Source: Flavipsychrobacter sp. (GTDB lineage Bacteria > Bacteroidota > Bacteroidia > Chitinophagales > Chitinophagaceae). From it: a stretch of 64,000 nucleotides of DNA. The stretch spans positions 62,001-126,000 of the forward strand of contig JAFIGV010000011.1 in the NCBI GenBank assembly GCA_017849575.1. The letters are read 5' to 3'. The stretch's first letter is position 1. Every line of letters starts with the position of its first letter. Positions 8,409 through 64,000 of the stretch are shown here, one piece after another. The position numbers and the translations under genes were made by a program. The notes beneath the pieces are model-generated. The model was not told the DNA's origin. It saw nothing but the letters and a program-made list of their open reading frames with translations, and searched no databases.

Positions 8409-9323
8409 TCAGTTCAGGCGTCTGTACTCCTGGGGTGTTTTTCCGGTCTTCTGCTTGAAAAGCCTGCCAAAATAATGGGGATAATTGAAGCCCAAAGTAT
8501 AGGCTATTCCACTTATAGAATCTGTAGAACCCAGCAGCAAATGCTTCGCCTTGTCTATCAGGAAATCGTTTATGTGATCTTTAGCAGAACGTCCGGTTTC
8601 TTTCGTCAGAAGGTCGCTCAAATAACCTGGGGAAAGGCGGCAATGGTCGGCCAGATATTGAAGGGTCGGCTGCCCTTTTTCTATGAGTTGGCCTTCTGCA
8701 AAATACTCCTTTAGCAACAACTCGACCCTGGCAATTACATCACGATGCGTTGCTGCACGCGTGTTAAACTGCCGTTCATAAAATCGTTTGCTGTAATTGA
8801 GTAACAACTCGATGTTAGAAACGAGCACCTGCTGGCTATGGTTGTCGATACGCTCGTTTATTTCTGTTTGAATGAGTCTAACAATCTGATTCAGGGTATT
8901 TTGTTCGGCTCCGGAAAGGTGAAGTGCCTCGTGAACTTCGTAGTTAAAGAAGTTGTACGTGTGAATCTTTGAGCCGAGAGCGGTATTTCGGATCAGGTCC
9001 GGGTGAAAATATAGCATCCAACCGGTAACCTGATTCAATTGCTGTGGCTTCCTGACTGTAATGACCTGATGGGGTGCAGTAAAGATCAAAACCCCATCGT
9101 CAAAATCATAGGCATTTCTACCGTAATCAATTCCGCAACTTGAGTCCTTCAGGGCAATGAGATACAAATCGGACGAAAATCTTTTGCCTACGGTTTCCGC
9201 TCCATAAGCGAGTTTTCGGGTGTCGAGTATCGTAATCAAAGGGTGCGTGGGTTTGTCCAAACCAAATACAGCTCTGATTTCGGCAATGGATTTTGAATGT
9301 ACTATCGGACGCTCCGTTTTCAT
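8409..9323 (-). CDS. AraC family transcriptional regulator
   Basis: The 304-residue protein has an N-terminal cupin-like sensing region (about residues 30-170) and a C-terminal AraC DNA-binding domain with two helix-turn-helix units (about residues 205-303). The domain contains LADHCRLSPGYLSDLLTKETG and GIAYTLGFNYPHYFGRLFKQKTG, ending in PQEYRRLN. This is the signature order of the HTH_18 domain. Adjacent placement and common orientation with the two SDR genes suggest that it controls them, possibly in response to a small aldehyde or aromatic inducer; the inducer cannot be deduced. Confidence 0.93.
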   Translation of the reverse strand: MKTERPIVHSKSIAEIRAVFGLDKPTHPLITILDTRKLAYGAETVGKRFSSDLYLIALKDSSCGIDYGRNAYDFDDGVLIFTAPHQVITVRKPQQLNQVTGWMLYFHPDLIRNTALGSKIHTYNFFNYEVHEALHLSGAEQNTLNQIVRLIQTEINERIDNHSQQVLVSNIELLLNYSKRFYERQFNTRAATHRDVIARVELLLKEYFAEGQLIEKGQPTLQYLADHCRLSPGYLSDLLTKETGRSAKDHINDFLIDKAKHLLLGSTDSISGIAYTLGFNYPHYFGRLFKQKTGKTPQEYRRLN

Positions 9324-9788: not shown

Positions 9789-11591
9789 CTACACCACCGG
9801 CACATGAACCATCACTACGGTTCCTTTTCCCGGAGCTGCATCCCACTCCACGGTGCCTTTCAGATAGTCCACCCGGCTTTCAATATTCTTCAGGCCTATA
9901 CCTGACTTGGCTTGCGCTTCCTGTAGATTAAAACCCCGGCCATTGTCTTCGATGGTAAGGCTGATGCCTTCTTCATCTTTGATCAGTGAAATATCCAGTT
10001 GTGTGGCGCCTGCATGTTTGATCACATTGTTCACACACTCCTGCACTACCCGGTACAATACCGATTCTATATTGCCGTTGATGCGCTCATTCAGGCCTTC
10101 GGTGTAGAGATGTACTTTGATGACGCGTTGGTCAATTTTGTTCACAAACTCGCGGATGGCTGTTGATAAGCCCGATTTGAGCAGCGCATTGGGCATAATA
10201 TTGTGCGAAACCGTGCGCACCTCTCGGCAGCCTTCATCCACCAGCGACATGGCTTTATCGAAGGCAGTCCTCTGGTCGTCGTTCTCAAAGTTCAGCTCGC
10301 TTGCAACCATACTGAGGTTCATTTTCGCAGCACTCATCAACTGGCCTACTCCGTCGTGCAGGTCTCCGGCTATTCGCTTGCGCTCTCGTTCTTCTGCCTC
10401 GATCACCGCATGGGTGGCCAGTTCCTGCTGATAGATCACCGCTTCCTGAAGGCGTGCCTGCTGCCGAAGCCTGTAGCGACGGTACCAGGATACCGACAAA
10501 AGGGTAGCCAGCACAAGAATGCCTCCTGCACCGGCAATCATGTAGTCGCGCTTTTTGATTTGCACCGATTGGAGGGCGATCTGCTGCTCTTTCTTTTCTG
10601 TTTCGTAGCGTGTTTTCAGTTCAGAAATTTGCTGGTTTGTTTCATCGGTCATCAGAGAATCTTTCAGGCTGGCAAGCATTTTCTGGTAGGCAAGTGCTTG
10701 TTTGTAGTTACCCTGATCTTCTTCTACAATAGTGCGGATGGCATAGCAATAGGTGCGCTCGTGATTTAGCTTTTCCGCAAATGTCAGGGCCACTGCAGAG
10801 TCGGAATAGCGTATGGCCTCAGCGTAACGACCTAAGGCACTTAGTGTTCTTGCTACGTTATTGTACGAGATCACCATACCGGCTTTATCTTCATTCTCAC
10901 GGTCATAACGCAGGCTGCGGGTAAACATGCTTAGCGCCTCTTCCTGCTTTCCCATTTCGGTATATATGTCGCCCACATTGCTCAGGCAGGTAGAAATACT
11001 GTAGGGATCGTTCATTTCTTCCGACTGGGCAAGAGCGAGACGATAGTAAAACAAGGCCGTGTCGGGCTTATGCTTTTCGCGATAAATGGTGCCGATGTTA
11101 TTGTAGGTCATGGCCACACCTTTTTTCAGGGCCACTTTTTTGCAGAGTTCATTCGACTTCAGATAGTTTTCCAGCGCCTCGTCGAAACGGCCCATGATCT
11201 TGTACAAAACACCGATATCATTGTACGTGATGGCCTGCCCGTGTTCATCGTTGGTCCGCTCTTTTATACCGAGGGCTTTGAGGTGGTTTTTGAGCGCTTG
11301 TTCATAGTTGGCCCGGTTTTTCTCGATGACCCCCAGCACGGAGTAGTCTTCGGCCTCAATCTTCGTCATGCCTGTAGCTGTAGCGTAGGTCAGGGACTCG
11401 CGGATATAGCGCTCAGCCGTGTCTCCCGAAATTTGATGATAGTCCTTTCCTAACTGGAAATAAATTTTGGCTTTCGCCGAGTCGGACTGATGCCTTTGCA
11501 AGACCTGCAACAAACTGTCAATCCGCTCGCGCTGCGCCTGCGAACAGAGAGAGAGGAGCAGCATCACTACAGCTAAAAAAGAACGCTTCAT
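9789..11591 (-). CDS. TPR sensor histidine kinase, HisKA_3 (NarL-partner) type
   Basis: The 600-residue protein starts at MKRSFLAVVML, with a signal peptide ending CSQAQ. Residues ~25-330 are tetratricopeptide repeats (for example NDIGVLYKIMGRFDEALENYLK), followed by a short coiled coil and one membrane span (about residues 355-375). The kinase core has the HisKA_3 motif ERKRIAGDLHDGVGQLMSA with His412, then an HATPase with ECVNNVIKHA, EDNGRGF and SGIGLKNIESR. Periplasmic TPRs linked to this core are a common Bacteroidota architecture that normally signals to a LuxR-type response regulator. No such regulator is adjacent, so the partner must be elsewhere. Confidence 0.95.
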   Translation of the reverse strand: MKRSFLAVVMLLLSLCSQAQRERIDSLLQVLQRHQSDSAKAKIYFQLGKDYHQISGDTAERYIRESLTYATATGMTKIEAEDYSVLGVIEKNRANYEQALKNHLKALGIKERTNDEHGQAITYNDIGVLYKIMGRFDEALENYLKSNELCKKVALKKGVAMTYNNIGTIYREKHKPDTALFYYRLALAQSEEMNDPYSISTCLSNVGDIYTEMGKQEEALSMFTRSLRYDRENEDKAGMVISYNNVARTLSALGRYAEAIRYSDSAVALTFAEKLNHERTYCYAIRTIVEEDQGNYKQALAYQKMLASLKDSLMTDETNQQISELKTRYETEKKEQQIALQSVQIKKRDYMIAGAGGILVLATLLSVSWYRRYRLRQQARLQEAVIYQQELATHAVIEAEERERKRIAGDLHDGVGQLMSAAKMNLSMVASELNFENDDQRTAFDKAMSLVDEGCREVRTVSHNIMPNALLKSGLSTAIREFVNKIDQRVIKVHLYTEGLNERINGNIESVLYRVVQECVNNVIKHAGATQLDISLIKDEEGISLTIEDNGRGFNLQEAQAKSGIGLKNIESRVDYLKGTVEWDAAPGKGTVVMVHVPVV

Positions 11592-11631
11592 AAACAAGGG
11601 ACTTTCAGAGCATAAGATAGCAAATCCCCCC

Positions 11632-11668
11632 TGCAAAAAGAAAATCGCCGCCCCGAAGGAGCGACGAT
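11632..11668 (-). terminator. Terminator of ssb
   Basis: On the minus strand ATCGTCGC(T)CC-TTCG-GGGCGGCGAT forms a strong hairpin with a UUCG tetraloop, followed by TTTTCTTTTTG. It starts about 25 nt after the ssb stop. Confidence 0.8.
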
Positions 11669-12907: not shown

Positions 12908-13552
12908 TTACCATTTCAGGGTCAAATAATCAACATAACCCGTGGTGTTCGCCAGCACCATAAAGCCGGTCTGCGAGCCGCTGAGCGGGCGCGCCGGCGT
13001 TTGATAAACTTTGACTCCGTTGATATAGAAATACCAGTAGTCCGACACCTGCTCTACCTCCACATCGTTCCAGCCCTGACGAATGTTTTGATCATATTGC
13101 CAGCTTACAATAGCTTGGGGGTGCAGGCCTTCTTTATACACAGCAAAATAGCCGGAATTGTCAATAAAAATCGAATACCCATAGCTATTGGAGGAAGCCC
13201 CGAAAATCAAACCCATGGAGTAGTCTGATTTCATTTTTGTCTGAATCAGAAAGTCGCCGCCGGTGCGAACACCCGTACTTACCACAGCCACGTGATTGGT
13301 TCCCAGCCTTGAATAATCTACCATTTTGTAATATCCATTGGCCACAAGCCCAAAGGCAGAATCGGCAGGGTCATCAAAGGCCCATCCACGGTCATCGCTG
13401 TAAAATTCTTCATTGAAGCTATAACCATAACCGTTCTGATTAGGATTGGGATTCGTATTGTAGTAGTCATTGTCGTGTACCACACAGCTACCCAAACCAG
13501 AGATGGCGAATAATGCAAAAGCGCCCACTACGAAGTATTTTCTCTTTCTCAT
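12908..13552 (-). CDS. Lipoprotein with LamG/DUF1080-like beta-sandwich
   Basis: The 214-residue protein has a lipoprotein signal ending ISGLGSCVV (lipobox Cys ~23) and an Asn/Tyr-rich linker. A ~170-residue all-beta domain follows, with FNEEFYSDDRGWAFDDPADS, FLIQTKMKSDYSMGLIFGAS, GYSIFIDNSGYFAVYKEG and WYFYINGVKVYQTPARPLSG. This run of motifs is characteristic of concanavalin-like carbohydrate- or surface-binding domains. It is probably anchored in the outer membrane. No neighbouring enzyme indicates a ligand. A CCCC/CGGG motif lies about 220 nt upstream on the same strand. Confidence 0.85.
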   Translation of the reverse strand: MRKRKYFVVGAFALFAISGLGSCVVHDNDYYNTNPNPNQNGYGYSFNEEFYSDDRGWAFDDPADSAFGLVANGYYKMVDYSRLGTNHVAVVSTGVRTGGDFLIQTKMKSDYSMGLIFGASSNSYGYSIFIDNSGYFAVYKEGLHPQAIVSWQYDQNIRQGWNDVEVEQVSDYWYFYINGVKVYQTPARPLSGSQTGFMVLANTTGYVDYLTLKW

Positions 13553-13911
13553 ATCCTAAAAGGGAGTTTATGGTCAATGAGGCAAAAAGCAGGCCGAAAC
13601 CAGGAGTCCGGGTTAGAAAGGATATAAAAGCTTTATTTTCAATCGTTCCCTGCTGTTAGTAAGTCGGTCGCAGATCTATTAAGTAACAGGCAACCATCCT
13701 GTGTGCAAGCCTTTTGAACTGTAAAATCCTTGACCTTGTTTTCGGAAATCAGCTTATACAAAAGAACAAAAATCCCGAGAATGGGGGATTTCAGGCAGCA
13801 AAGCTAGTTTTTACTATTGGAGCCACCTAAAAGGCGGTTCTGCGCCCAACCCGTTGCAATCCATGCTTTTTTCGAGGTTATCAATTACCCAAAGGGTCTA
13901 ATTACGCACAA
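13553..13911. other. Intergenic region with a CCCC/CGGG motif
   Basis: This divergent interval separates the lipoprotein gene from the next plus-strand gene. It contains one copy of the CCCC-ATTTT-CGGG motif in reverse orientation (13771-13790) and otherwise nothing that I recognise. A long untranslated leader of about 200 nt for the lipoprotein gene would follow if the motif marks its promoter. Confidence 0.4.
13771..13790 (-). promoter_or_regulatory. CCCC/CGGG upstream motif, copy 1
   Basis: On the minus strand this is AATCCCCCATTCTCGGGATT, containing the dyad TCCC-N8-GGGA. It points toward the lipoprotein gene at 12908-13552. The sequence 21 nt downstream (ATTTCCGA) does not match TAnnTTTG, so this copy gives the weakest support for a promoter role. 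Confidence 0.4.
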
Positions 13912-14460
13912 ATGGAAAAGTTATTTTTCACTAGAAAAATTGCCGGCAGATATACGATACTAAAAAACGAAACGGAGGACATTGTCAGGATGTATCCCGC
14001 ACGGGGATGGTTTAAACGCAAAGTTGTTGTAGAAGGCCGACATACGTTTTTCATCAGGGGTATGGTGGCTGCCTTTAGCCCGTTCGGCGCTCGCGTGTAC
14101 AATGATTCCGGCGCCATCTTGTGGCGTACCCGTGGTTCGGGCTGGCTCTTTGACGCTGAGGGGCGAAAGCACAGGGTTTTAACGAGCAGGAAGGGACTTT
14201 ACAAAAATGCGGTAAGTTGTACAGGACAACGCGCCAATCTTTTTTTCTCAGGGAGTCATCGCCTTGCCTATTTTACTGAGCGTGGCCGGTTTAGTGTATT
14301 GCGCACCGAGCCCGAAATCTATGCTGCGCTATGCCTTGTTGTGCTGGTGTCGCGGCGGGCCTTGCTCCGGCGCTTGTTCCTGAGTATGGCTTGTGTGGCC
14401 ATTTTGGTTGCTCTTGGCATTCAGTACTGGAGGCCTGCCTTTAACCTTCTGTTTGGATAG
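13912..14460 (+). CDS. Hypothetical protein with C-terminal membrane segment
   Basis: The 182-residue product is unrecognised. The first ~130 residues are a beta-rich soluble part (RYTILKNETEDIVRMYPARG, GRHTFFIRG, ARVYNDSGAILWRTRG, WLFDAEGRKHRVL). The order and spacing look like a real fold of repeated strands, possibly two related halves of about 60 residues each. A hydrophobic C-terminal helix (about residues 155-178, LFLSMACVAILVALGIQYW) suggests a tail anchor. It is followed in the same direction by another unknown gene. Confidence 0.65.
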   Translation: MEKLFFTRKIAGRYTILKNETEDIVRMYPARGWFKRKVVVEGRHTFFIRGMVAAFSPFGARVYNDSGAILWRTRGSGWLFDAEGRKHRVLTSRKGLYKNAVSCTGQRANLFFSGSHRLAYFTERGRFSVLRTEPEIYAALCLVVLVSRRALLRRLFLSMACVAILVALGIQYWRPAFNLLFG

Positions 14461-14521
14461 GTCGCTCCGTCGGGCAACCGACAACCCATTTCACCCTATC
14501 GGTATGAACATGCAACAGGAC

Positions 14522-14569
14522 ACCCCCCATTTTCGGTATTTTCTAAAAAGATTCCAGATCATACTTTCG
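14522..14569 (+). promoter_or_regulatory. CCCC/CGGG motif, copy 2, with spaced -7 box
   Basis: ACCCCCCATTTTCGGTATT (14522-14540) is followed after exactly 21 nt by TACTTTCG (14562-14569), a one-mismatch TAnnTTTG. The motif therefore sits where the -33 element would be. Confidence 0.45.
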
Positions 14570-14708
14570 CGCTACATATATACAGTGAACCGTGTGCTGG
14601 TTTCGTCCGCATACGAAATGCTTCGATTTGGAGACGTCCGTTTTTCCGGGTGTCTCCTTTATTTTTTGCAAAGGCATGAGAATGAGCAAGGCGACAAAAA
14701 GATGGACG

Positions 14709-14756
14709 CCCCCCCGTTTTCGGGATTTCTAATCAGGCTTTTCTTTTGGACTTTTA
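14709..14756 (+). promoter_or_regulatory. CCCC/CGGG motif, copy 3
   Basis: CCCCCCCGTTTTCGGGATT (14709-14727) is preceded by GATGGACG and followed after 21 nt by GACTTTTA, a two-mismatch TAnnTTTG. The next gene begins at about 14874. Confidence 0.4.
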
Positions 14757-14873
14757 CGATCAAACACTTCCTATCCATCTGGTATTCAGCAAGTAGTGAC
14801 CTGCTTCAATACCATCCCAACCCGTTGGGCTTACAAGGGCAAATATGCAGGGTGTAATGACGAAATCTATTGT

Positions 14874-15323
14874 ATGGGCTTGTTACTAAAAGGAAGATTT
14901 GTTGTTTGCCGGTATTCGGGCGAGCTGGAAGAAATACTCGATCAACCGTCAGCAGCTAAAAAATTACTGCCCACGCTGGTCCGCATCCACAAAATTGGTC
15001 CAACACAGTGGCAGTTAATGTTTTCGGACGATACGGAGGTGACGGTGAGAAGGCTGGCCACCCATGTGGATCAGGAGATTATGTTTTTGCTCACGGATTT
15101 CGCTGCATCAAGGATCAGACGGGCCGTATGCAGTTACCACGCCGACCCCATGAGCGACGGAAGGTATTCCATCAGTTTCCGCGTCTCGGTTCAGTTACTC
15201 AAACGCAGGCCATTTTGGCTACTTCCGGTTGCCTGGTTCGCCATTCGTCGGTTTCTACACAGCCGCCATCGGGTCTTAAGCCAAAACCTATGGGTACAAC
15301 TAGAAACAAAAAGTGTACGCTAA
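14874..15323 (+). CDS. Hypothetical protein
   Basis: From ATG 14874 the frame encodes 149 residues (MGLLLKGRFVVCRYSGELEE); an upstream ATG at 14796 is possible, but its added residues look non-coding. The body has QWQLMFSDDTEVTVRRLATH, EIMFLLTDFAASRIRRAV and GRYSISFRVSVQLLKRRPFW, an alternation of strands and helices that looks genuine. I recognise no family. It follows motif copy 3 by about 120 nt. The 3' end is basic (RRFLHSRHR). The start and reality of the gene are uncertain. Confidence 0.5.
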   Translation: MGLLLKGRFVVCRYSGELEEILDQPSAAKKLLPTLVRIHKIGPTQWQLMFSDDTEVTVRRLATHVDQEIMFLLTDFAASRIRRAVCSYHADPMSDGRYSISFRVSVQLLKRRPFWLLPVAWFAIRRFLHSRHRVLSQNLWVQLETKSVR

Positions 15324-15693
15324 ATAAAACGACAATACTTCTGAAACGCGGGAAGGAATCTGCATTGAGTACAGGGCCGGATGGACAAATACCCCTCATT
15401 TTCGGGATTGATTTTTCCTGAACGATAAAAGATTTTTGTACCCGATTTAGGTCGGAACCATTGTATGGCAGCAGATTAAGCATAAATGCCGCTCCTTATC
15501 TCCGACCCGAACATGAATACTCGCGACCATTTTTCGATGAAGCACCTTTAGGTTGTACGAGATCCATTCCCTATCCATCCATGAAGACACCCATCAACAC
15601 GAAACCCGTGCCGGACAGTAAATCCGGACAAATAATACCGCAAAGACATGACGAATAAAATGGCTTTTGCTGTAGAAAATATTTTGGCGTGCG
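15324..15693. other. Intergenic region with CCCC/CGGG motif copy 4
   Basis: I see no gene here. The interval holds motif copy 4 and then about 255 nt before the first gene of the fibre-like trio, consistent with a long untranslated leader. No strong hairpin is apparent in that leader. Confidence 0.4.
15391..15438 (+). promoter_or_regulatory. CCCC/CGGG motif, copy 4, with spaced -7 box
   Basis: ACCCCTCATTTTCGGGATT (15391-15409) is followed after 21 nt by GATTTTTG (15431-15438), which differs from TAnnTTTG only at the first base. It is preceded by GATGGACAAAT, similar to copy 3. It lies upstream of the 15694-18476 exported protein genes. Confidence 0.5.
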
Positions 15694-16242
15694 ATGAGCA
15701 GAAAAACAAAAAACTACAGAAAATCAGGCAGGTGGATGAAGTGCGCACTTCTTGGGTGGACTGCTGTGGCTTTTGTTAGTACGGCAGCAGCACAGGTAAA
15801 GATTGGTGACAATCGAACCGTAGTTCATCCGGATGCCATTCTGGAACTGGAATCGAGCCATAAAGGGGTACTGCTCCCGAGGCTTCAGCTTGACTCAACA
15901 ACGAGCCCGGCTCCGCTTTCGGCATTTACCAAAGGAATGTTTGTGTACAACACTCATGTGGCCAACGACGTGGTGGAAGGTATCTATTACTCTGATGGAA
16001 CACGATGGTTTAAAATGCAGGTGAACACGCCGTCGCTGCAACAGGCCCAACGATCGGAGATAACGGTAAGCGTAAACGGACAAACCAATTTCAATACCCC
16101 GGGAACCATAACCGACCCCAACCTTATTACCCTATACAGAAACGGCGTAAGAATATCTTTTACTACTGTCGGAAACAATCAGATCGTAAGCAATGTACCC
16201 TGTATTGCAGGCGATGAGATCACAATAGTTCAATTGAATTAA
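15694..16242 (+). CDS. Exported fibre-like surface protein (first of three)
   Basis: The product has 182 residues with a signal peptide (basic start, then LLGWTAVAFVSTAAAQ). The mature N-terminus VKIGDNRTVVHPDAILELES, continuing KGVLLPRLQL and MFVYNT, is a block found at the start of many Bacteroidota surface proteins that resemble phage tail fibres. The last ~50 residues (LITLYRNGVRISFTT...IAGDEITIVQLN) form a terminal beta module that recurs at the end of the next gene (VWVYRNGAKLVAGTDYTVNG). I see no type IX sorting domain. The function is unknown; adhesin or surface fibre is an inference. Confidence 0.8.
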   Translation: MSRKTKNYRKSGRWMKCALLGWTAVAFVSTAAAQVKIGDNRTVVHPDAILELESSHKGVLLPRLQLDSTTSPAPLSAFTKGMFVYNTHVANDVVEGIYYSDGTRWFKMQVNTPSLQQAQRSEITVSVNGQTNFNTPGTITDPNLITLYRNGVRISFTTVGNNQIVSNVPCIAGDEITIVQLN

Positions 16243-16287
16243 AGCAATAGCGGAATAAACAATTTTCTTAATCAAAACAAAACAAAA

Positions 16288-17283
16288 ATGAGAAAGATTC
16301 TCCTGATCTTGCTGGCCACAGCAGTAGGACTGCCGGCACTGGCTCAACGCCGTACCACCCGTGTTATCGACAACAAGGGAACCATCAAAATGGTGCTGGA
16401 TTCCAGCTCACACTTTATTGACACTGCCTACAATGGTCTCACGGAGCTAAACGACTCTACCGTGATCCTCGGCGGCAAGCTCACACAGACAACGATAATT
16501 GACATCAACGGAAATTCTCTGCAAATAGCCAACCTGGTTTCCGGAGCCGGCACCGACAGCGTTGTCGTGGCCGATCCTTCTACCGGCGAGCTCAAAAGGG
16601 TGTCTGCATCGAGACTGTTTGGAAACCTTACAGCAAAAAATGGCCTCACCAAAATCGGCGACACGATAAAACTCGGCGGGGCACTTACCGAGCCCACCAG
16701 CATAGACGCGTCGGCCACCAACACCCTGACGATCAATGCCACTACGGCGGGCGCAATCCGGCTGGCAGGTATGACCTCCGGCTTGACCTCGGATAGCCTT
16801 GTAGTGGTGGATCCGGCAACGAGCAGCCTCCGCTATATCTCCGCATCAAAACTGCTCGCCGCGTTGCAAGCCAAAAATGGCCTGACGAAAAACGGTGATA
16901 CACTTGAGCTGGGCGGTACACTTACACGCGCCACAACCATTTCAACCAGTGCTACCAACACGCTCGCTATTGAAGGGCTGCAGTCGGGCAGCTTTGCTAC
17001 CGACAGCATCGTAGTGGCCAACCCGGCTTCCGGTGTCCTGAAAAGAGTGTCGGCCAGCTCGCTGCTGATCAGCAACGAAACAAGTTTTGCCGCCGTTACC
17101 GGCACATTGACCTATGCGGTAACCGCTATTCCTGCAGATGTAACGAGAGTGTGGGTGTACAGAAACGGAGCAAAACTGGTTGCAGGGACAGATTATACGG
17201 TTAACGGTACCGACGTGACGTTTATACAGAATGGCTACACCGTTACCACCGGCGATGTTATTGAAGTACAATGGGTGAAATAA
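16288..17283 (+). CDS. Exported repeat protein with fibre-like modules (second of three)
   Basis: This encodes 331 residues with signal peptide MRKILLILLATAVGLPALAQ. Three ~75-residue repeats share the pattern NGLTKxGDTxxLGGxLTxxT, then SATNTLxIxG, then TDSxVVxxPxSGxLKRVSAS. The C-terminal ~70 residues carry the YRNGAKLVAGTDYTVNG module seen in the preceding protein. The alternating short strands and Gly/Thr turns suggest a beta-helical or trimeric fibre. The leader is an A/C-only tract directly before the ATG, with no Shine-Dalgarno. Spacing to the neighbours is 45 and 188 nt, so it is probably part of one surface-protein locus. Confidence 0.8.
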   Translation: MRKILLILLATAVGLPALAQRRTTRVIDNKGTIKMVLDSSSHFIDTAYNGLTELNDSTVILGGKLTQTTIIDINGNSLQIANLVSGAGTDSVVVADPSTGELKRVSASRLFGNLTAKNGLTKIGDTIKLGGALTEPTSIDASATNTLTINATTAGAIRLAGMTSGLTSDSLVVVDPATSSLRYISASKLLAALQAKNGLTKNGDTLELGGTLTRATTISTSATNTLAIEGLQSGSFATDSIVVANPASGVLKRVSASSLLISNETSFAAVTGTLTYAVTAIPADVTRVWVYRNGAKLVAGTDYTVNGTDVTFIQNGYTVTTGDVIEVQWVK

Positions 17284-17471
17284 GAAGATTCTGAGATTGT
17301 CTCGACGGTAACCTTTCTGTTTTGTGCAGGCAAAGAGTAGCATCCGGGTACAGCCATCTTAATGGTACAATGGCCGGCATTCTTTTCATAGCATCGCAAC
17401 CAGAAAGAAGATCGTTGAGGCAATCTCCATTGTTAACTCTACCCTCTTCACCTACAATAGAAATCGTAGCC

Positions 17472-18476
17472 ATGGAAGGCGACTACCAAAAAAAGTTGAA
17501 ACACCTTGTTTTTTTACTGATGCTGCTCATGTCAGTAAACTTGTCCGCTCAGTCCTTAATAGACATGAAGGGTACGAGAATGATGGTGGACACCTCAAAA
17601 TGGCGATTGTCAGGTACGAACATCTATTCCAAAAATACCGGGAACGTGGGCATTTCCAACCCCTCGCCGAGCTACAAACTGGATGTAAGCGGCAAAGGTC
17701 GGTTTACGGACAGCCTGGTGGTGAACAGCGTCCGGATCATGGGTATTGCAGCAGGAACGGTCAATGACAGCCTTTTGGTCATAGAACCCGCTACCGGAAT
17801 CGTAAGAAGAATAGCGGTAAACCGGCTGCCCGGCGGCAGACCCGACTCTACCACTGCATCCAACGGACTTACCCTTACCGGAAAAGATGTTCAATTGGGC
17901 GGTGCCCTCACAAAGCCCACTACGATTGGCACCTCAGCTACCAACACACTCGCATTAAGCGGATTGTCCGGCGGCAACCTGACAACCGACAGTGTACTTG
18001 TAGTCAACAATGCGGGCGTGATAAAAAGAGCATCCATGGCAACTTTTCCGCGAGTGGACCTTGATGCAGACCGCACCAGCAATTATACACCAGGAGTGGC
18101 TTACGCCACCATTGTCTATAACACTGTGAACACCAACGTATCTTCACAATACAATTCAGGAACCGGAATATTTACCGCAGCTGAAGATGGTCTTTATCAG
18201 GTGATGGTAACCAACATGTATAACGGCAATATACAGGGCGATGCAATGTTCCGGAATCGTGTTATTCTTAACGGATCTGTTGTAGAGCTCGAAGGTTCAG
18301 TGGCGTTTTCGCCCTATAGTTCAGGTTCGGGTCTCGATGGCACAATAAGCCTCACCACAGTGCTATCATTGGCAGCCGGCGATAACCTGAGAATACAGGG
18401 AGGAGGTGAAGTGGGAAATATAAGGCCCCGCTATAGTACCGGACAGCACAAACTTCAAATCGTCCGCCTGCGATAA
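17472..18476 (+). CDS. Exported repeat protein with C1q/TNF-like C-terminal domain (third of three)
   Basis: The 334-residue product starts at ATG 17472, with a signal peptide ending VNLSAQ. It contains SKNTGNVGISNPSPSYKLDV, a short fibre motif, and one copy of the NGLTLTGKDVQLGGALTKPT repeat shared with the preceding gene. The C-terminal ~140 residues (FTAAEDGLYQVMVTNMY, RNRVILNGS, LSLAAGDNLRIQGGG, HKLQIVRL) match the jelly-roll strand order of C1q/TNF-like domains, which often form trimeric binding heads. Shaft repeat plus head domain fits a surface fibre, but the ligand is unknown. Confidence 0.8.
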   Translation: MEGDYQKKLKHLVFLLMLLMSVNLSAQSLIDMKGTRMMVDTSKWRLSGTNIYSKNTGNVGISNPSPSYKLDVSGKGRFTDSLVVNSVRIMGIAAGTVNDSLLVIEPATGIVRRIAVNRLPGGRPDSTTASNGLTLTGKDVQLGGALTKPTTIGTSATNTLALSGLSGGNLTTDSVLVVNNAGVIKRASMATFPRVDLDADRTSNYTPGVAYATIVYNTVNTNVSSQYNSGTGIFTAAEDGLYQVMVTNMYNGNIQGDAMFRNRVILNGSVVELEGSVAFSPYSSGSGLDGTISLTTVLSLAAGDNLRIQGGGEVGNIRPRYSTGQHKLQIVRLR

Positions 18477-18557
18477 ACAGGCTCCCATGCGCGCTCATTA
18501 ACCACCATCAGCCTCAGTTTCCTAACGAATGGAGCCGCATCATTCCACCATCAGAAC

Positions 18558-32327: not shown

Positions 32328-33013
32328 TATTCCTGCCTTGCTTTAAGTAGCGCTTCGGCTACCAACAGATCTTCGGGTGTGGTGATCTTCAGGTTTGCTT
32401 TTTCACCTTCAACCAGAAAAACCGGAGTACCGCTGTGCTCCACCACCGTAGCCTCGTCCGTAAAGGCGGCACGATAGGGCTGCTGCATGGCAGGCAGCAA
32501 AATTGATGCCCTGAAGGTTTGGGGTGTTTGTATCAGTCGAATTTCAGAACGGTCGAGCGGAAAAGAGCCTGCTTCGGTAACCCGTCGCATACTATCGGTG
32601 GCGGCAATGGCGGGGATGGCGCTGCCATTTTCCAAAGCCTGTTCATAACACCTTTGAATCAAATCTGACGTTACCAGCGGGCGCACGCCATCATGAACAA
32701 AAACAATAGCCTGGTCGGGAATGTCTTTCAGCCCGTTCTGCACACTGTGGAAGCGGGTTTCTCCACCGGCAACAATAGTCATATCAATCCTCTCGGGAAA
32801 AGACTGCAGCACTATTTGTGCATAACTGATCTGATGGGCAGGCAATACAAGCACTATGTGTATGCCCACAATCGCTTCCGTAAAGGCGCGAAGCGTATGA
32901 TATAGAACAGGACGACCATTGAGGGGCAAAAATTGTTTGGGTATGGCTGTTCCCATCCGGGTGCCTTGGCCGCCCGCTACGATTACTGCATATGCTGGTA
33001 GTGACCCGTCCAT
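32327..33013 (-). CDS. ispD: 2-C-methyl-D-erythritol 4-phosphate cytidylyltransferase
   Basis: A 228-residue nucleotidyltransferase of the MEP isoprenoid pathway. It has the CTP-binding loop AVIVAGGQGTRMGTAIPKQF, then FVHDGVRPLVT, AATDSMRRVT and IRLIQTPQTFRA, and a C-terminal KITTPEDLLVAEALL. These are diagnostic of IspD. It forms CDP-ME from MEP and CTP in the cytoplasm. One-base stop/start overlaps with both neighbours indicate translational coupling. Confidence 0.96.
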   Translation of the reverse strand: MDGSLPAYAVIVAGGQGTRMGTAIPKQFLPLNGRPVLYHTLRAFTEAIVGIHIVLVLPAHQISYAQIVLQSFPERIDMTIVAGGETRFHSVQNGLKDIPDQAIVFVHDGVRPLVTSDLIQRCYEQALENGSAIPAIAATDSMRRVTEAGSFPLDRSEIRLIQTPQTFRASILLPAMQQPYRAAFTDEATVVEHSGTPVFLVEGEKANLKITTPEDLLVAEALLKARQE

Positions 33014-34569
33014 TATTTTACCTCGTGCATTAACTTTCTCACGAACGGAGAAATAACAATAATCAACACTCCGGCAATGAGTGCGTAGATAGCAAACTGA
33101 TGATATCCTGCGCTGTAAACTTCAAGCTTTTGGGCAGGGGTCGCATTTTTATCCGGCGAAATTTCTGCCCCGAACAGCCCCGCCACATATTGCCCGTAGG
33201 CACTGGCCAAAAACCACATGCCCATCATAAAGCCCTGCAGCTTCGGTGTAGCCAGTTTTGTCATCAATGATAAGCCAATGGGAGATAATGCAAGCTCAGC
33301 GAAAGTGACAACAAAATAAGCCAGGGTAAATACATTCAGTGATGCAACACCATCGGCTCCGGCGGTAAACTTTCCGGTAAAAAACGTGTAGAAGCCAAGT
33401 CCTAAAAGCAGAAATCCGATACCGAACTTGATAATTCCATTCGGCTCCATCTTCTTTCTGTTCAGCCAGAGCCACACCAGCCCCACCAGCGGCGCGAAGA
33501 TGATCACGAAGAGAGAGTTTGCAGAATTGTTCACCATGTTGGGATCAATATGCAAGCCCAAAAGATTGGCTTTAAGGTGCTCTGCTGCATACAGGCTGAG
33601 GGATCCGCCTGCCTGTTCGAAAATCGCCCAAAACACTACGGAGAATATGATAAACACAAAAGCTGCGATTAGCTTTTCATTTTCCTTCCGGCTCAGTTTC
33701 GTCATTTCATAAATGAGGTAAACAATACTGAAGGGACCAATGAAATACATGAAATAATCGGTGTATTGGGTATTGGACACCATGGTGATGATGAGCGGAA
33801 TAGATGCCAGCGCCCCGATATACACCGCATACTCATACCATTTTTTCTGACGAAATTTCTGGTAGTCGATAGGCGCCTTCCCAATAGGTCCAAGTCCTTT
33901 ATGAGTAAACAGAAAAGTAAGCAGGCTGATGGTCATCACCAGTGCCACAAGTCCAAAAGCTACATTCCATCTCAAAGCTTCTGGTATCAGCGACGAAAAA
34001 ATTTCACCCTTGCCCACCCCAATCATCAGAATACCTCCCAAAAATGCTCCGATATTGATGCCGGAATAAAACAATGAAAAACCCGCATCGCGGCGCGCAT
34101 CTCCGGGCTGATAGAGCTGGCCTACCATCGACGAAATATTGGGCTTAAAAAAACCGGTTCCGATAATAAGAAAGGCAATACCCGTGAAAAAGAAAGCTTT
34201 GGGATCTACCATCAGAATAACACTGCCGGCGATCATAAGTAGCCCTCCCCAAAACAATGATTTTCTAAACCCGAGAATTTTATCGGCAAATAATCCGCCG
34301 ATGAAGGTAAAGGCATACACCCAGGCTTGTGTGGCTCCATATTGAAGATTGGCAGTGTCTTTAGCCATACCCAATTGATAAACCATGAAGAAAGTGAGCA
34401 TGCCCCGCATTCCGTAAAAACAGAAACGCTCCCACATTTCGGAGAAAAACAAGGCCCAGATTTGCTTTGGGTATTTTCCCTGGAAATTCTGGATTTGATC
34501 CAGTGCAGGATCGTTGGTGCTACTGATCAGCTCCGTACCTTCATTATTGCCTACTGCAGATGGTTGCAT
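33013..34569 (-). CDS. Proton-dependent oligopeptide transporter (POT/PTR2 family)
   Basis: The 518-residue protein is an MFS-type di/tripeptide-proton symporter with about 14 membrane helices. Family motifs include FFSEMWERFCFYGMRGMLTF (the ExxERFxYY-type motif of helix 1), GLFADKILGFRKSLFWGG, GTGFFKPNISSMVGQLY and FYSGINIGAFLG. It imports small peptides across the inner membrane. It is the first gene of an operon with ispD, an association without obvious metabolic logic. A second POT gene starts beyond the right end of the window. Confidence 0.95.
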   Translation of the reverse strand: MQPSAVGNNEGTELISSTNDPALDQIQNFQGKYPKQIWALFFSEMWERFCFYGMRGMLTFFMVYQLGMAKDTANLQYGATQAWVYAFTFIGGLFADKILGFRKSLFWGGLLMIAGSVILMVDPKAFFFTGIAFLIIGTGFFKPNISSMVGQLYQPGDARRDAGFSLFYSGINIGAFLGGILMIGVGKGEIFSSLIPEALRWNVAFGLVALVMTISLLTFLFTHKGLGPIGKAPIDYQKFRQKKWYEYAVYIGALASIPLIITMVSNTQYTDYFMYFIGPFSIVYLIYEMTKLSRKENEKLIAAFVFIIFSVVFWAIFEQAGGSLSLYAAEHLKANLLGLHIDPNMVNNSANSLFVIIFAPLVGLVWLWLNRKKMEPNGIIKFGIGFLLLGLGFYTFFTGKFTAGADGVASLNVFTLAYFVVTFAELALSPIGLSLMTKLATPKLQGFMMGMWFLASAYGQYVAGLFGAEISPDKNATPAQKLEVYSAGYHQFAIYALIAGVLIIVISPFVRKLMHEVK

Positions 34570-63364: not shown

Positions 63365-64000
63365 CTACTTAACACCATGCATCATTTTCTGGATCGGCTT
63401 ATTAAGCGCTATTAACACGAGTCCTAAAACAATTACGAAACCTGAAATAGTGGAAAAAATTAACTGGGCTCCCATGCTTTCGACGAAAGAGGCAAGGAAA
63501 CCTCCAACAATGTTTGCCACGAAAGTTGCCAAAAGCCAAACACCCATCATCAACGACGCAAATTTTGGATGAGCTAACTTGGTTACAACAGACAAACCAA
63601 CAGGAGAAAGGCATAGTTCCCCTATTGTATGTACGAGATAAGTCATCACAAGCCAAAATAAACTAGCCTTAATTGTCTCATCAGCTACATCACCGCCTCG
63701 TTGGGCAATCGCACCCAACATAAAAAAGAATCCAACTCCCAGTAATACCATCCCTAACCCCATTTTTACGGGGGTAGAAATTTTCTTTCCTAGCCTGGAA
63801 GTCCAGAAAATACTAAATAGTGGCGCCAACAGTACTATAAAGAGCGGATTAACAGATTGAAACCATGAAGTTGGTATAACAAAGTTACCCACAGACCTGT
63901 CTATAAATTTATCGGTATAAAGGCTAAGCGAAGAACCTGCTTGTTCGAAACCTGCCCAGAAAAAAATAACGAAAGCAGTCAAAATAAAGATGACTGTCAT
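63365..64000 (-). CDS. Proton-dependent oligopeptide transporter (POT family), C-terminal part
   Basis: The frame is open to the window edge, giving the last 211 residues of a POT transporter. It has FFWAGFEQAGSSLSLYTDKF, SVNPLFIVLLAPLFSIFWTS, HTIGELCLSPVGLSVVTKLA and four to five membrane helices, ending MMHGVK. It is clearly related to the POT gene at 33013-34569 (EQAGGSLSLY, VNSLFVIIFAPL, LALSPIGLSL, KLMHEVK), but diverged. The true start lies beyond the window. Confidence 0.93.
   Translation of the reverse strand: MTVIFILTAFVIFFWAGFEQAGSSLSLYTDKFIDRSVGNFVIPTSWFQSVNPLFIVLLAPLFSIFWTSRLGKKISTPVKMGLGMVLLGVGFFFMLGAIAQRGGDVADETIKASLFWLVMTYLVHTIGELCLSPVGLSVVTKLAHPKFASLMMGVWLLATFVANIVGGFLASFVESMGAQLIFSTISGFVIVLGLVLIALNKPIQKMMHGVK

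Follow-up and report, generated by a model that had tools for sequence, protein, structure and literature searches.

A putative 17-base promoter element at a fixed distance from a -7 box at twelve sites of a Flavipsychrobacter genome

The 64,000-nucleotide stretch of Flavipsychrobacter DNA analyzed here (the window; positions 62001-126000 of contig C30, in a genome of 3,610,633 bases on 32 contigs) carries four copies of a dyad-like motif within 1.7 kb. Judged by the proteins it encodes, the DNA belongs to the Bacteroidota, probably near Chitinophagaceae. The locus raises the question of whether these copies are promoter elements and, if so, what kind of regulator would read them. The motif was searched as the 17-base pattern CCCCNATTTTCGGGATT with up to two mismatches, the reversed pattern serving as control, and the search made no use of the -7 box. 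Four matches are obtained in the window, each with a single mismatch, whereas 100 dinucleotide shuffles average 0.04 and never exceed 1. Their positions agree with the preliminary description, and they are the sole window matches at this threshold. A 16-base form of the motif with three mismatches yields six matches against 2.5 expected, so the two extra ones carry no meaning. What had been said of the -7 box also holds: it follows copies 2 and 4 after exactly 21 nt, is weaker at copy 3, and is missing at copy 1, where ATTTCCGA occupies the box position; copy 1, lacking the box, may be inactive. The strict dyad TCCC-N8-GGGA, by contrast, had been ascribed to all four copies and occurs at copy 1 alone, since the first T varies (T at eight and C at four of the 12 genome sites described below).

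Non-overlapping ORFs of at least 120 aa cover about 87% of the window. Copies 1 and 4 lie outside these ORFs, and copies 2 and 3 inside a mechanical 154-aa ORF (14393-14857), which begins with GTG within the end of the preceding gene, has no Pfam match and is therefore not taken as a gene. Copies 1, 3 and 4 precede genes, as had been proposed for every copy; copy 2 has no convincing gene behind it and runs into a strong terminator.

That the motif occurs nowhere else is true of the window but not of the genome, where eight further sites bring the set to 12 at up to two mismatches, versus none for the reversed pattern. At three mismatches 45 sites compare with 22 for the control, so the clear signal stops at two. 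Contigs C18, C19, C23 and C32 hold one site each; two sites lie 91 kb apart on C7, and two lie 2.4 kb apart in identical orientation on C24 (Table 1). A sequence-only profile of 48 columns, built from the 12 sites, gives 18 matches in its own genome at E <=10: the 12 sites at E <=3.2e-5 and six others between 0.17 and 4.55. The sites match this profile by construction, and the informative part is the gap beneath them. Two of the weak matches (L081 and L084) resemble, by eye, terminators of similar sequence. Judged from the letters, the motif is a real, sharply bounded promoter element.

Table 1. Positions of the element, its -7 boxes and neighboring features in the window (numbered from the first base of the window) and of the further sites in the genome (contig:position)
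Feature	Position	Strand	Remarks
Copy 1 of the element	13771..13787	-	Points at lipoprotein gene 12908-13552; profile E 3.2e-5, model positions 1-39 only
Predicted lipoprotein, 214 aa, after copy 1	12908..13552	-	By eye; no Pfam or NCBIfam match
Copy 2 of the element	14524..14540	+	1 mismatch; profile E 4.3e-6
-7 box of copy 2	14562..14569	+	TACTTTCG, after 21 nt
Candidate small RNA, ~95 nt	14574..14667	+	Start inferred from the box; end at the terminator T-run
Intrinsic terminator stem-loop behind copy 2	14630..14657	+	11 pairs and T-run
Copy 3 of the element	14711..14727	+	1 mismatch; profile E 3.4e-6
-7 box of copy 3	14749..14756	+	GACTTTTA, weaker; after 21 nt
149-aa protein after copy 3	14874..15323	+	No Pfam match; start codon chosen by eye
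Copy 4 of the element	15393..15409	+	1 mismatch; profile E 8.7e-7
-7 box of copy 4	15431..15438	+	GATTTTTG, after 21 nt
Fibre-like exported protein, 182 aa, after copy 4	15694..16242	+	Export by eye
Exported repeat protein, 331 aa	16288..17283	+	Probable operon with 15694-16242
ORF with C1q-type domain	17322..18476	+	PF00386, E 4.2e-6; probable operon with 15694-16242
Site C7a	C7:1617	-	Pattern match; downstream, exported protein of 349 aa (by eye)
Site C7b	C7:92319	+	Pattern match; downstream, exported protein of 348 aa (by eye)
Site C18	C18:30304	+	Pattern match; downstream, exported protein of 378 aa (by eye)
Site C19	C19:159937	-	Pattern match; downstream, exported protein of 693 aa (export by eye) with type IX sorting domain
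Site C23	C23:71566	-	Pattern match; downstream, exported fibre-like protein of 294 aa (export by eye)
Site C24a	C24:57241	+	Pattern match
Site C24b	C24:59625	+	Pattern match
Site C32	C32:153209	+	Pattern match; downstream, exported protein of 224 aa (by eye)

The geometry of the sites supports a promoter function. The -7 core A..TT stands at a spacer of 21 in 11 of the 12 sites, and at no other spacer from 8 to 44 do more than four share it. The fuller box [TC]AnnTT[TC]G is present at that spacer in seven sites and at none of the other spacers in this range. The motif holds 23.9 bits of information and the box 5.5 bits, against a maximum of 2.8 in 2000 random sets. For the spacer the value is 5.6 bits (random mean 3.45, sd 0.62, maximum 5.95 of 2000), the excess falling mainly in its first three columns; the spacer is thus not wholly free, and the element may extend one to three bases rightward into it. 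No site has a -33 TTTG box; in six, ATTG stands at the motif's right edge. The -7 box opens with C in six sites, T in three, G in two and A in one, and the trinucleotide CGT occurs in none of the 12 box regions.

These features relate the sites to the promoters of the Bacteroidota primary sigma factor, sigma-A (sigma-ABfr), whose TAnnTTTG box is placed at -12 to -5 for F. psychrophilum in an excerpt of PMC9723704. The boxes seen here are of the same -7 type and, by analogy, would occupy the same positions, so that the motif would cover about -50 to -34, with the center of its dyad near -43.5. Unlike the sigma-A promoters, the sites would have the 17-bp motif in place of the usual -33 TTTG, and their spacing is fixed at 21, whereas that between the sigma-A boxes of B. 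thetaiotaomicron is variable according to an excerpt of PMC7366714. The likeness of the box to TAnnTTTG speaks for the primary sigma factor, and the missing TTTG together with the frequent C at the first box position suggests a weak core promoter.

Of the two regulators that had been suggested initially, a dedicated activator or an alternative sigma factor, the activator fits better, and the promoter element at the -33 position itself is strongly supported. An alternative sigma factor would recognize two elements, the motif as one of -35 type and the box as that at -10. It would impose just such a constant spacing, unlike the variable one between the sigma-A boxes of B. thetaiotaomicron, and it would be at ease with a box that opens with C twice as often as with T. 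The box nevertheless has the sigma-A core A..TTT(G), and the conserved bases run to about -50, past the usual footprint of sigma region 4, for which a 17-bp element is long. Moreover, the ECF -10 element of F. psychrophilum carries the CGT that is missing here, as described in part of PMC9723704. The type of the box, the absence of CGT and the length of the element thus favor the activator, and an alternative sigma factor appears unlikely.

The same work also bears on promoter classes with comparable targets. SM5 and SM6 are ECF-type motifs of F. psychrophilum and, like the element, belong to promoters whose genes include cell-surface functions (excerpt of PMC9723704). One box, TACATTGC at site C24a, fits the SM5 form TAnnTTGY; the others do not, and unlike SM5 and SM6 none of the 12 box regions has CGT. 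For neither motif does the excerpt of PMC9723704 describe a 17-bp upstream element of the kind found here.

Could the site instead bind a repressor? The motif would then be an operator overlapping the -33 region, as repressor operators often do with the -35 region, and its dyad-like form would suit this role. A repressor, however, does not require the constant distance to the -7 box that 11 of the 12 promoters keep, and the lack of TTTG, with ATTG at half of the sites, suggests promoters that need help; we therefore regard a repressor, too, as improbable. The dyad itself, ATCCC-N8-GGGAT, is imperfect and only mildly unusual: six of nine pairs form in the consensus, a number reached by 2.2% of shuffled consensuses. 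A dyad-like element of 17 bp at a rigid distance just upstream of the box suggests a dimeric activator in contact with the polymerase.

We therefore consider it probable, from the sequence features described, that the motif is the operator of one putative activator of class II type, itself probably dimeric, which works with the housekeeping sigma factor. At class II promoters CRP is centered near -41.5 and LuxR-type boxes near -42.5. The sites share with such promoters an imperfect dyad-like site over the predicted -35 region, here centered near -43.5 by analogy, a rigid spacing to the -7 box and a predicted weak core. The operator sequence fits no consensus known to us, and we know of few Bacteroidota operator sequences outside Bacteroides and Flavobacterium. 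In the mechanism we propose, a single sequence-specific activator, probably as a dimer, would bind about -50 to -34 in place of the -33 box and hold RNA polymerase, carrying the housekeeping sigma factor of the Bacteroidota, on the weak -7 box 21 nt further on. It would thereby turn on a regulon of about 12 sites, whose products would be a lipoprotein, fibre-like proteins and others for export, an HU-like protein and the type IX-sorted protein encoded after it, small unknown proteins and perhaps a small RNA.

Two further readings deserve mention. In the first, the copies would be a degenerate family of terminators, their C-runs, T-runs and G-runs forming hairpins. Copy 1 does appear in a terminator scan as an 8-pair hairpin, and the two terminator-like weak profile matches point the same way. 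Across the 12 sites, however, the loop bases of the motif are conserved as much as the stem bases; the scan's list of 14 sites (shuffles mean 7.0) includes copy 1 but none of the other three window copies; and the elements are directed at the transcription unit that comes next, 11 of the 12 being followed by a -7 box. This reading is extremely improbable. In the second, the copies would be recombination sites of a surface-protein switch with invertible promoters, or remnants of a repeated element. Invertible promoters are known in Bacteroides (excerpts of PMC8748976 and PMC4747536), copy 1 has the opposite orientation to copies 2 to 4, and exported proteins are encoded nearby. Against this, the flanks differ among sites and most of the spacer is unconserved while the -7 box at 21 nt is kept, the other sites are single, 91 kb apart or in the same orientation, and no recombinase was noticed among the scanned proteins around the four copies; a switch or repeat of this kind is very improbable.

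Copy 2 and its box are followed by the terminator and not by a convincing gene, which predicts a transcript of about 95 nt, and copy 2 may thus drive a small RNA. The fold z-score of 14574-14670 is -3.25, the terminator included in this segment. The terminator could equally serve the 182-aa gene at 13912-14460 that precedes copy 2. The candidate RNA has no Rfam match at gathering scores, and its pairing with 11 leaders is nowhere significant (in the best case, 14 of 200 shuffles are as good).

Eight of the 12 sites directly precede a gene for an exported protein or a lipoprotein, the N-termini being judged by eye. The 182-aa protein after copy 4 is a relative of the genes behind sites C19 and C23, and the true start of the C1q-type ORF in its probable operon probably lies further in. 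Site C24a precedes a gene for a 122-aa protein with a GIY-YIG match below the curated cut-off (19.7 vs 22.6 bits). The gene after C24b encodes an HU-like protein of 102 aa (PF00216, E 4.9e-23), and behind it follows a protein of 427 aa carrying PKD and type IX sorting domains. Leaders, from inferred start to start codon, measure about 30 to 250 nt over 11 sites.

The preliminary description suggested that the element serves the control of surface proteins and proposed to ask by a genome scan whether hits cluster upstream of secreted ones. The count by eye agrees with this, and so does the fibre-like family, which has five matches in the genome; the four short ones lie in motif-led gene groups, and the fifth (on contig C11, in an ORF of 1689 aa) is not behind the element. 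The protein family of C7a and C7b likewise has only two genome matches at E <=1e-5, both with the element; the proteins are 48% identical, and the sites agree at 15/17 bases of the motif, 13/21 of the spacer and 7/8 of the box. On the other side, a crude signal-peptide rule accepts seven of 11 first genes (copy 2 having none), and of 50 other ORFs in the window with 120 aa or more it accepts 18, so that enrichment of exported products behind the element is not significant in this test (p = 0.09). The background left out ORFs starting from 13,900 to 18,500 and the gene of copy 1, and the rule is weak both ways, missing the 182-aa protein of copy 4 and passing some cytosolic-looking proteins. 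Type IX sorting domains have 113 matches in the genome (E <=0.001), and only two of these are found downstream of the element, which is thus no general switch of type IX cargo. Control of surface or exported proteins is therefore only a tendency.

The set was then compared with other genomes. With no more than two mismatches, the pattern is present in 55 of 59 genomes, the own genome included, and the 58 others together hold 163 matches versus 124 for the reversed control, 32 of them lying above their own control and 13 below. The slight overall excess may be due in part to terminators of similar sequence. Six congeners total 10 matches and 10 control matches, and the largest count in any other genome is likewise 10, where the control gives 17. 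With the profile at E <=0.1, 18 of the 59 genomes are matched (own included), the best foreign E being 0.0044; this run used stricter filters, by which some weak matches are lost. By pattern and profile, none of the 58 other genomes has a second clear motif set. Exact pattern plus -7 core is found in 75 scattered stretches of a species-genome collection, which may omit records very near the own genome, against about 30 expected (an estimate from uniform bases); two genomes have two stretches each and the rest one. In viral contigs there are 22 such stretches, with one match each.

The neighborhoods of related genes were compared as well. Homologues of the C7b protein exist in three of the 58 other genomes (28, 25 and 28% identity), and the upstream 330 nt of those in G031 and G006 contain no visible motif. 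Words shared among upstream regions were compared in two relatives with many fibre-like matches, G016 (25) and G047 (20), the own genome serving as positive control. In the latter, motif words of k = 11 occur in 7 of 57 upstream regions versus 3 in shuffles. The 31 regions of G016 give up to 6 versus 4-5 (at k = 9, 15 versus 9-10), and the 25 regions of G047 give 4 versus 4 (at k = 9, 9 versus 7-9). The top words of both relatives are nearly all A/T-only and are therefore read as composition, so this approach reveals no obvious counterpart of the element in either. G016 is a small relative (2.5 Mb), and many of its fibre-like matches are clustered (loci L291-L303). In the literature, as far as the portions of text covered by the search go, neither the motif string nor a description of such an element was found. 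The element appears private to this species or to close kin outside the genomes searched, and by its sequence it looks like the mark of a lineage-specific regulon. It links proteins whose functions are unknown and whose production probably answers to one and the same condition, and the 12 sites with their rigid geometry are directly testable and could serve as bait for fishing out the regulator.

The gene neighborhoods of the sites hold several regulator-like genes. The genome has 12 GerE and nine LytTR matches, none within 10 kb of any site. A Crp/Fnr-like gene (L033:6333-6920) lies about 250 bp from the motif of the C23 site, in divergent orientation; Pfam assigns it a cNMP-binding domain only, and nothing ties it to the other sites. 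An AraC-type gene in the window (8409-9323) and a response-regulator-like ORF about 4.7 kb from the C18 site (L037:10070-10999, by eye) show no link to the motif. A bolder version of the regulatory reading is conceivable but doubtful: a circuit private to this species, run either by an activator with a 17-bp operator or by an unusual sigma factor, which would direct some twelve promoters for exported fibre-like proteins plus one or more small RNAs, its operator having changed too quickly to be shared by any congener searched.

Several other features were noted in passing. About 1.3 kb past the lipoprotein gene of copy 1, the window encodes a TPR sensor kinase with HisKA_3 and HATPase domains (9789-11636, minus strand); by eye, no response regulator adjoins it among ORFs of at least 180 aa. 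Two adjoining NarL-type response regulators with weak GerE scores (L212 and L214) lie elsewhere in the genome, at C25:102426-103242, and a neighboring pair of similar matches occurs on contig C190 of genome G001. Dispersed repeats occupy about 1-410 and 1826-2485 of locus L031 on contig C7, with translated pieces such as LPFKREGARRAEGLK, and recur repeatedly toward the end of the contig, next to the C7a site. Finally, the window contains two similar genes for POT-type transporters, judged by eye, at 33013-34569 and 63365-64000, both on the minus strand.
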